From: Sphingopyxis sp.
GTDB lineage: Bacteria; Pseudomonadota; Alphaproteobacteria; Sphingomonadales; Sphingomonadaceae
Reading direction: 5' to 3'
DNA length: 64,000 nucleotides
NCBI RefSeq assembly: GCF_025869345.1
Contig: NZ_JAOZVW010000004.1
Coordinates: 26,128 to 90,127 of the forward strand
Below, piece by piece: positions 49,402 to 52,319 of the stretch. Within the stretch, counting starts at the first letter, position 1; every line of letters starts with the position of its first letter. The notes beneath the pieces were generated by a model. The model did no database searches. It saw nothing but the letters and a program-made list of their open reading frames with translations, and was not told where the DNA came from. A program made the position numbers and the translations under genes.

Positions 49402-50547
49402 ATGGTCGATGTCTTCATTTCCTATTCGCGCGACAACAAGGCGCGCGTGGCCGAGATCGCCGAGGCGGTCGCGGCGGCGGGCTATGACGTCTGGTGGGAC
49501 GCCGAACTGCCGCCGCATCGCTCCTACGGCGATGTGATCACCGAAAAGATCGGCAGCGCCAAGGCGGCGATCGTCGTCTGGTCGCAGACCTCGGCGCAAT
49601 CCGAATGGGTGCGCGCCGAGGCCGATGTCGCGCGCAACCAGAAAAAGCTGGTGCAGACGTCGATCGACGATGTGATGCCGCCGCTGCCCTTCAACCAGAT
49701 TCAATTCGCCGAACTCGCCGACTGGAACGGCGAGCCCGACCATCGCGGCTGGCGCAAGGTGATGATGAGCCTGGAGGAGCTGTGCGGACGGGAGGCGGCG
49801 CCTGCGGCCGCCTCGCAGCCCGCACCGCCCAGACCGGCTGCGGCCGACCGGCAGGAGCCCCCCCCGGCCCGAAAGCCATCTTTCCTGCCATGGGCGCTGC
49901 TGGGGCTTGCGGTCGTTGCCGTCGCCCTGCTCGCGTGGAAACTGCTTCAGCCGTCGCCCGAACCCGCGACGGCGGCGGCGCCCACCGAAACCACGGCGGC
50001 CCCCAAGGAAGCGGATGCAAGAGCGACACCGGTCGCCACGTCGCCCGCAGAGGCCTTCACGCTGGCGGCGGTGATCGACGATCCCGACGGCTTCACCAAC
50101 ATCCGCTCGGGGCGGAGTGCCAAGGCGGCAATCATCGGCAAGGTGCTCGAGGGCGAAAAATTCCTGACTTATCAGCAACCCGGTTCATGGTGGCGGGTGC
50201 GCAAGGCCGACGGCACCACCGGATATATGTTCCGCAAATATATCCGGCTGATCGAAGGGGGAGGGCCTCCGCCGCCGCCCGCCGACACGGGCAAGGGCGC
50301 GATCATCGCCGATTCCTCGACGCGCGCGCTGACCGCGGCCGATGTCGCGGGCCTCACCCCGGAGCAGGCGCGGCTGGCGCGCAACGAGATTTTCGCGCGG
50401 CACGGCCTGCGCTTCAAGGACCCCGGCCTGCAAGCCTATTTCACGTCCTTGCCCTGGTATCGGCCGACCAGCGACAGCGTCGCGCTGTCGGCGGTCGAAA
50501 AGGCGAATGTCGCGCTGCTCCAATCGGCCGAAACCGCCGCGCAATGA
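49402..50547 (+). CDS. Membrane TIR-domain protein: TIR - TM - SH3b - YARHG
   Basis: MVDVFISYSRDNKARVAEIAEAVAAAGYDVWWDAEL...WSQTSAQSEWVRAEAD (TIR with candidate catalytic E73); TM SFLPWALLGLAVVAVALLAWKLL; SH3b TNIRSGRSAKAAIIGKVLEGEKF...WWRVRKADGTTGYMFRKYIRLI; YARHG LARNEIFARHGLRFKDPGLQAYFTSLPWYRP. Confidence 0.92.
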   Translation: MVDVFISYSRDNKARVAEIAEAVAAAGYDVWWDAELPPHRSYGDVITEKIGSAKAAIVVWSQTSAQSEWVRAEADVARNQKKLVQTSIDDVMPPLPFNQIQFAELADWNGEPDHRGWRKVMMSLEELCGREAAPAAASQPAPPRPAAADRQEPPPARKPSFLPWALLGLAVVAVALLAWKLLQPSPEPATAAAPTETTAAPKEADARATPVATSPAEAFTLAAVIDDPDGFTNIRSGRSAKAAIIGKVLEGEKFLTYQQPGSWWRVRKADGTTGYMFRKYIRLIEGGGPPPPPADTGKGAIIADSSTRALTAADVAGLTPEQARLARNEIFARHGLRFKDPGLQAYFTSLPWYRPTSDSVALSAVEKANVALLQSAETAAQ

Positions 50548-52319
50548 CGGCATCGGCCGCCGCCGTCGAAGCCGAGGTCGCGCACCGGCTGGGGCAGGGC
50601 GATGCGCTGAGCGCGTTCGACTGCGCGGCGGCGGCGCGGCGCGAGGGGATCGAGAGCCCGCGGCTGCGCTATCTGATGGTGCGCGCGCTCGCGGCGTCGG
50701 GCGACAGCCTCGGCGCGATGCACCTTTACGAACAACTCGACCTTGGCGCGACGGGCGATGTCGACAGCCTCGCGCTCGCCGGGCGCATCTGGAAGGACGA
50801 AGCCTTCGATCATGACGGCGACCAGCGCGCTGGTTTCCTGCGCAAGGCCGCCGCCGCCTATGACCATGCGTTTCAGGCATCGGGCGCCGATTTCCCGGCC
50901 ATCAACGCGGCCAGCCTGTATGCGATGCTCGGCGAGCGCGAGCGCGCGGCGGCGCTGGCCGAACCGATCGCGGCGCATGGCGCCGCCGACACTTATTGGG
51001 ATCAGGCGACGCTCGTCGAGGCGCTGCTGCTGCTCGGGCGCGGCGAGGAGGCGCTCGTCCATGCGCGCGGCGCCAATGCGCAGGCGGGAACGCGCGCGGG
51101 TGACCGCGCCTCGACCTGCCGCCAGATCGCCCGGCTTGCGGCCAGCGGCGCGATCGACGCGGGCGATGCGCAAGACATCGCCGCGCTGCTGCGTCCCGCG
51201 CCGGTCGGCGTCTATTGCGGCCGCATGTTCCGCGCGGGCGGGGCGGGGGAGGCGAATGCGGCGCGGGCGATCGCGGGGGCGCTTGACGCGCAGCCGCTTT
51301 CGGCGCTGATCGGCCCGCTGGCGTGCGGCGCCGACATCCTGTTCGCGGAGGCCGCGCTCGATCGCGGCATTGACCTGACCATCGTCCTGCCCTTTGCCGA
51401 GGATGATTTCATCGCCCAGTCGGTCCGGTCGGGCGGCGCCGAATGGCTTCCGCGCTATCGCCGCTGCCGCGACGGCGCCGCGATGGTCCATTTCGCGAGC
51501 AACGCGGGCTATGTCAGCGACGATTGCCAGTTCATCCTCGGCTCGCACACCGCGATGGGGCTTGCCAGGCTGCGCGCGCGCGAACTCGAAACCGCCGCGA
51601 TCCAGCTTGCGGTGGTCGATCCGGCGGTCGCCGCGCGTTCGGGGGCGGAGATTGCCGGAACCAACGCCGATATCGCGCTCTGGCAGGGCGGGGGCGGGGA
51701 GACGCGGACGATCCCGGTCGGCGATCTCGACCGCAATCTCGATTTTCCGCCGGCGCCGAAACCGCCCGCAGGCACGCAGCGGGGTCTCTACGCGATATTG
51801 TTCGCCGATTTCGCGGGCTTTTCGAAGCTCGGCGAGGCCGAACTGCCGGTCTTCGCGCACGAGGTGATGGGCGGCATCGGCCGCATCCTCGACGGGTTCG
51901 GCGACGCCGTGCTGTTCCGCAACACCTGGGGCGACGCGGTCTATGCGGTGATCGACACCCCCGGCGCGGCGGCACGGATCGCGCTCGCGATGCAGGAACG
52001 GCTCAACGTGCTGCCCCCGGGGCTGCGGCTGGAGGGGCATAAGGCGGGGATGCGCACCGGCATCCACTTCGGTCCGATCTATCGCGGGATCGACCCGGTG
52101 GTCGGCAACGAGCTGTGGTACGGCACCGAGGTTACGCGCACCGCGCGGATCGAGCCGGTGACATTGGTCGGGCAGGTCTATTGCACCCAGCCGCTCGCCG
52201 CGATGCTCGCGCTCGACAATGCGCGCGATTTCGACTGCGATTATGTCGGCAAGGTCGGGCTTGCCAAGGATTATGGCGAACTCGCGCTCTATCGCCTCTC
52301 CCGCCGCTCAGGCGGCTGA
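50544..52319 (+). CDS. TPR - SLOG-like - class III nucleotide cyclase fusion protein
   Basis: 591 aa; TPR-like N-terminus (ALAGRIWKDEAF..AINAASLYAMLGER), SLOG-like centre (LIGPLACGADILFAEAALDRGIDLTIVLPFAEDDFIAQSV), C-terminal cyclase (YAILFADFAGFSKL, NTWGDAVYAV, YGTEVTRTARIEP); ATGA overlap with the TIR gene. Confidence 0.88.
   Translation: MTASAAAVEAEVAHRLGQGDALSAFDCAAAARREGIESPRLRYLMVRALAASGDSLGAMHLYEQLDLGATGDVDSLALAGRIWKDEAFDHDGDQRAGFLRKAAAAYDHAFQASGADFPAINAASLYAMLGERERAAALAEPIAAHGAADTYWDQATLVEALLLLGRGEEALVHARGANAQAGTRAGDRASTCRQIARLAASGAIDAGDAQDIAALLRPAPVGVYCGRMFRAGGAGEANAARAIAGALDAQPLSALIGPLACGADILFAEAALDRGIDLTIVLPFAEDDFIAQSVRSGGAEWLPRYRRCRDGAAMVHFASNAGYVSDDCQFILGSHTAMGLARLRARELETAAIQLAVVDPAVAARSGAEIAGTNADIALWQGGGGETRTIPVGDLDRNLDFPPAPKPPAGTQRGLYAILFADFAGFSKLGEAELPVFAHEVMGGIGRILDGFGDAVLFRNTWGDAVYAVIDTPGAAARIALAMQERLNVLPPGLRLEGHKAGMRTGIHFGPIYRGIDPVVGNELWYGTEVTRTARIEPVTLVGQVYCTQPLAAMLALDNARDFDCDYVGKVGLAKDYGELALYRLSRRSGG

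Follow-up and report, generated by a model that had tools for sequence, protein, structure and literature searches.

A TIR-linked TPR-S/SLOG protein of Sphingopyxis with a probable class III nucleotidyl cyclase and a family-specific active site

Introduction

The locus described here raises the question of whether a class III cyclase domain that keeps its two metal-binding Asp residues and its transition-state Arg, while lacking the canonical adenine-selecting Lys/Asp pair and the transition-state Asn, is still an enzyme and, if so, what it makes and which signal it serves. The domain forms the C-terminal part of a protein encoded directly behind a TIR gene in a 64,000-nucleotide stretch of Sphingopyxis DNA, the whole of which is referred to below as the window. 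A first-pass annotation made from the sequence alone had singled out positions 51783-52262, which are most of the cyclase domain, and had suggested an altered substrate, an alternative product or a regulatory near-pseudoenzyme. Here, we examine these suggestions with profile alignments, structure models, selection estimates and the gene neighbourhoods of related proteins.

Results and Discussion

Domain organization of the cyclase protein

The features of the two genes are listed in Table 1. The ATG at 50544 fits the residue numbering of the first-pass annotation and overlaps the stop codon of the TIR gene as ATGA, as read from the sequence; a 941-aa open frame starting at 49494 was rejected as a GC-rich artefact. 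The closest public loci of the cyclase protein are mostly in Sphingopyxis genomes, at 78-89% protein identity.

Pfam recognizes TPR-S (PF20308; 46.8 bits against a cut-off of 27.6) and Guanylate_cyc (residues 417-574; 28.6 bits against a cut-off of 21.9) in this protein, whose AlphaFold model has a mean pLDDT of 85.2. Its N-terminus superposes on the ASK1 structure 5ulm_A with a Z-score of 19.1 and an rmsd of 2.8 over 216 aligned residues; the TPR scaffold of TPR-S is also present in ASK1. For residues 216-400, Pfam gives no family. Modelled separately (pLDDT 90.1), this region matches YpsA (2nx2, Z 16.8), DprA (Z 12.4), LOG (Z 10.3) and the MoCo carrier protein (Z 10.3), and by sequence it finds LOG weakly (E 0.21). 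By its modelled fold, we assign it to the SLOG superfamily, with the Rossmann-type fold of SMF/DprA-LOG and putative binding of a nucleotide or NAD-derived ligand. In the TIR protein, a single membrane helix is predicted from hydrophobicity.

Table 1. Positions of the cyclase and TIR genes and their parts in the window
Feature	Position	Strand	Basis
TIR gene: TIR_2 aa 4-111, membrane helix near aa 160-182, SH3_3 aa 232-281, YARHG aa 299-377	49402..50547	+	Pfam, hydrophobicity
Cyclase protein, 591 aa, TPR-S / SLOG / class III cyclase	50544..52319	+	ORF numbering, Pfam, AlphaFold model
TPR-S scaffold folded like the ASK1 central regulatory region, residues 1 to about 215	50544..51188	+	Pfam, structure match
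SLOG domain, residues 216-400	51189..51743	+	Separate structure model
Class III cyclase homology domain, residues 412-586	51777..52301	+	Pfam, profile, structure match
F420 and metal Asp D422	51801..51809	+	Each 45/46 in the family
NTWGD motif: N460 (Lys position), W462, metal Asp D464	51921..51935	+	Family versus control cyclases
L524 (Asp position), T531 (Asn position), R535 (transition-state Arg)	52113..52148	+	Profile alignment

The active-site substitutions belong to a family

When 46 related domains are combined into a profile, it finds the solved class III cyclases at E 2e-17. Superposing residues 406-590 of the model on the structures of soluble guanylate cyclase beta, Ma1120 and Rv1900c gives Z 20-21 and rmsd 2.2-2.8 Å (Foldseek, VIA-align); the structure matches of the domain span 159-177 residues, the best of them having Z 20.9 and rmsd 2.8 over 177 aligned residues. 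The by-eye alignment of the first-pass annotation fares well under this scrutiny. Its numbering is right from the ATG at 50544, the profile places D422 and D464 on their usual metal-binding partners, and R535 stands at the transition-state Arg by numbering and profile alignment alike. Aligned to Ma1120, N460 falls on K101, L524 on D157 and T531 on A164 (residue names from PMC4215837), in agreement with the claim that the Lys/Asp pair and the Asn are replaced. A proper profile alignment had been named as the check that could overturn this claim; it was run and does not restore K, D or N, and superposition of the AlphaFold model on class III cyclases agrees with it. The domain hence combines a class III nucleotidyl cyclase fold with two metal Asp residues and the transition-state Arg, and lacks the canonical Lys/Asp pair and Asn, which are usual in class III but not essential to membership.

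How the family treats these positions is informative. Among the 46 related domains, R504 and H508 are invariant (46/46) and, besides F420 and D422 (Table 1), W462 (45/46), D464 (44/46) and R535 (43/46) are nearly so. N460 is kept in 38/46, the others having mostly E, and positions 524 and 531 vary widely. As a control, 29 ordinary alphaproteobacterial class III cyclases were aligned, and these carry mostly F, D, I, D and R at the positions of F420, D422, W462, D464 and R535: position 464 is D in 29/29, position 462 is I in 24/29 and never W, position 460 is K in 26/29 and position 531 is N in 28/29. Given that the controls read K/I/N, the differences at N460, W462 and T531 are not a matter of chance; given that N460 and W462 are fixed or nearly fixed in the family and K and I in the controls, the two residues together are a clade signature. 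We conclude from these alignments that the active-site substitutions are a family signature and not decay. Both the family-wide conservation of N460 and W462, the most distinctive residue of all, had been overlooked at first. The suggestion of altered base selection is thereby well supported, and it applies to the family at large, in which N460 and W462 are conserved and 524 is variable; the substrate may well be altered.

The domain is also under purifying selection. Between the window protein and eight Sphingopyxis relatives, dN/dS is 0.05-0.22 for the cyclase domain, 0.09-0.39 for TPR-S and 0.08-0.29 for SLOG, the cyclase domain having the lowest value of the three in every pair compared. 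These results bear on the idea of a regulatory near-pseudoenzyme, which would bind nucleotides without turnover. Such a loss of function would fit the absence of Lys, Asp and Asn, but the metal Asp residues, the Arg and the pocket residues are strongly constrained; near-invariance of F420, W462, H508 and R504 together with the low dN/dS of the domain goes against what the first-pass annotation had proposed here. Furthermore, Ma1120 does without the Asn: it works as an adenylyl cyclase although it has Ala at this position, and A164N lowers its activity (PMC4215837). Rv1900c, too, is active, with His reported at the same position (PMC4886424). Since neither enzyme has the Asn and since relatives about 50-55% identical to the window protein (L018-L021) have N, not T, at 531, T531 is weak evidence for inactivity. 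On this sequence evidence, the pseudoenzyme reading is disfavoured, and the cyclase domain is likely to be an active nucleotidyl cyclase.

Linkage to TIR genes

A TIR gene lies within the sequence stretch of 52 of the 68 non-redundant family loci and is absent from the examined stretch in the other 16. Only 4 TIR_2 genes are present in the 4.0 Mb of the window genome, which gives a chance expectation of about 1% per 13-kb stretch, the loci not being independent of one another. The SxWxxxE motif is retained by nearly all of the intact TIR partners that were scanned. The partners come in several architectures (TIR-SH3-YARHG, TIR-FHA and TIR-TPR), and the order of the genes changes as well. In L098-L101 the order is swapped, with the TIR gene downstream of the cyclase and carrying FHA instead (checked with Pfam for L098). 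In L126-L129 the cyclase comes first and TPR-S last, with the SLOG match absent; a TIR gene adjoins this reversed-order cyclase in two of the four (L126 and L128), and in L128 it is fused to FHA and GGDEF. Proteins of the L018-L021 type are without TPR-S. From this pattern of linkage, the two genes very probably make up a functional TIR module.

The locus could also be thought to hold a conventional cAMP cyclase whose active site is relaxed and which is tied to the TIR gene loosely through shared regulation and with no messenger relay. Rv1900c, a fold neighbour of the domain at Z 20.1, is active without the Asn (PMC4886424), and the locus occupies a stable chromosomal position and not a mobile island, both of which would suit this explanation. 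It is nevertheless decidedly unlikely, as the TIR linkage recurs even where the genes are rearranged or the TIR protein is built differently, and both TPR-S and SLOG have links of their own to NAD-derived signalling.

As a separate observation, kinase-like and PP2C-like genes, judged by eye, adjoin the TIR gene in L098, L100 and L101.

CRP-like neighbours and decayed cyclases

Distant relatives have a TIR-TPR gene first, then a small gene, then the TPR-S-SLOG-cyclase gene, and next to it a CRP-like gene in which cNMP_binding and HTH_Crp domains are recognized. In the window, a CRP gene does not adjoin the system, and none of the 11 CRP-like matches in the window genome is singled out as specific to it. 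The small gene between TIR and cyclase matches pNTSase1 (PF20301) only in some loci. The window locus does not have it, and the signal may accordingly come from elsewhere in this system. In L104, L105, L108-L111 and L113 the small gene ends in an IIDP-like motif, and the Pfam model seems to cover only part of its family.

Where an intact cyclase (D-D-R, or K in place of R) has a CRP neighbour, the phosphate cassette of the latter retains Glu and Arg in 15/15 scored; beside decayed cyclases, the CRP phosphate-binding cassette is broken in 23/23. L183, an ORF fragment scored as degenerate, was set aside from this count, and L185, scored as lost in the tree count, is cut by a contig end. A Fisher test treating the co-loss as many events (p 6e-10) was discarded: on the TPR-S/SLOG tree, cyclase and CRP cassette are lost together once, on the same branch, and the p-value is not usable for what is a single evolutionary event. 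The comparison lends support to the idea that the ligand of the CRP protein would be made by the intact cyclases, most of which have F420/N460/W462 like the window protein.

The decayed tails are found on TPR-S-SLOG proteins of one clade (L130, L131, L146-L162, L165, L174, L176 and L178), which mostly retains the TIR gene and the CRP-like neighbour, the CRP being without its cyclic-nucleotide cassette. Thus, pseudo-cyclases did arise once in the wider family, as a near-pseudoenzyme reading of the window protein might expect, but they are a different clade from it; in them the metal residues are gone, as is the phosphate cassette of the accompanying CRP. That the window domain is itself a near-pseudoenzyme is, in our judgement, very improbable.

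Which nucleotide is made

If the domain is active, the identity of its product would depend on a base pocket lined from the positions that also serve in a pyrimidine cyclase. EaPycC reads CTP through F100, R142 and Q144 at pocket positions D1-2, D2-4 and D2-2 (PMC11224242), and, counted from the metal Asp residues, F420, N460 and W462 map to exactly these positions. The same active cyclase might therefore make cUMP or cCMP in the manner of Pycsar. The bulky, near-invariant and family-specific W462 would be in keeping with such a product, and the family profile does reach the uridylate cyclase 8jsz, though only at E 0.008. The receptors speak against it: the CRP-like partners of the relatives best match CRP-type regulators in sequence, including cAMP-dependent ones, and they have T or S at the base-contact position, where PycTIR has an Asn that reads uracil. 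Moreover, the PycC models of PADLOC match neither the window protein nor the four relatives tested. We regard a pyrimidine product as unlikely; the match of the CRP partners to cAMP-type CRPs and their T/S in place of Asn point tentatively to a purine product.

In L106 and L119, Glu at cyclase position 460 occurs together with Leu for Thr at the CRP base contact. These two cases, which are probably related, hint in their sequences that the base preferences of cyclase and receptor may change together.

Comparison with known systems and a possible relay

With Ma1120 and Rv1900c, the window protein has in common the fold (Z about 20), the two metal Asp residues, the transition-state Arg and the lack of the Asn; it differs from them in having N460/W462/L524 for K/I/D and in its N-terminal TPR-S and SLOG domains. 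With TPR-S conflict systems it shares a TPR-S above the Pfam cut-off, a TIR partner and, in relatives, a pNTSase1 partner, but its output is a class III cyclase behind SLOG. Burroughs and Aravind are said to have predicted TPR-S and pNTSase1 as parts of conflict systems in 2020; both are already Pfam families, which limits the novelty of the present assignment. Pycsar (PycC with PycTIR or PycTM) likewise places a class III-like cyclase beside a TIR gene, with a pocket built from the same three positions. As regards a Pycsar-type effector, in which a cyclic-nucleotide-binding domain is fused to TIR or TM, Pfam finds only TIR_2, SH3_3 and YARHG in the window TIR protein and no cNMP_binding match. 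Thoeris likewise pairs a TIR gene (ThsB) with a SLOG-bearing protein (the SIR2-SLOG protein ThsA), but in the window system a cyclase takes the place of the effector, and Pfam finds neither a SIR2 nor a macro domain there.

The SLOG fold is that of the cADPR-isomer sensor of Thoeris ThsA (PMC11204291). By analogy with ThsA, we propose that a TIR-derived signal gates the cyclase through SLOG/TPR-S, a proposal for and against which the chances appear to us evenly poised. Judging from the catalytic residues, the purifying selection and the gene neighbourhoods, we lean slightly towards a combined reading in which an active class III cyclase provides the output of a module of two genes, is gated by its TIR partner and has its product read by a CRP-type regulator. 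The full relay with two messengers is more tentative and falls short of an even chance. In it, the membrane-anchored TIR protein, with its SH3/YARHG part predicted to face the periplasm, would sense something and make an NAD+-derived nucleotide; on binding this nucleotide, SLOG and TPR-S of the second protein would activate the dimeric cyclase, which, with its F/N/W pocket, would make a 3',5'-cyclic nucleotide; and a CRP-type regulator, adjacent in distant relatives and perhaps unlinked in Sphingopyxis, would read it.

If true, such a relay would join NAD signalling of the TIR type and gene control by a cyclic nucleotide within a single short pathway, converting one immune-type signal into another on a scaffold with the same fold as in the animal stress kinase ASK1. 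It would also define a clade of cyclases whose substrate escapes the textbook Lys/Asp/Asn rule, and for which the sister clade, where the active site of the cyclase and the phosphate site of the receptor have both been lost, is a natural control.

Distribution of the locus

Across the genus Sphingopyxis, the TIR and cyclase pair occupies one fixed locus, adjoining a DUF885-like gene and/or rsmB wherever the flanks are covered. Full-length orthologues are present in about 27 of 80 Sphingopyxis genomes, as counted from the match list. Family members were not found among the viral contigs searched, and plasmid records yielded just 7 matches, of which two covered most of the query. A TPR-S cyclase relative is carried by the mobilizable Caballeronia plasmid pSBC2-4 (L227, 5179-6945); it has AGD in place of WGD, and the overlapping upstream gene gives no TIR match. 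In one Sphingopyxis genome (G023; L132, 6164-6622), a remnant of the TIR gene is flanked by the DUF885-like gene and rsmB, and a fragment of the cyclase gene lies close by, as though the two genes had decayed together.
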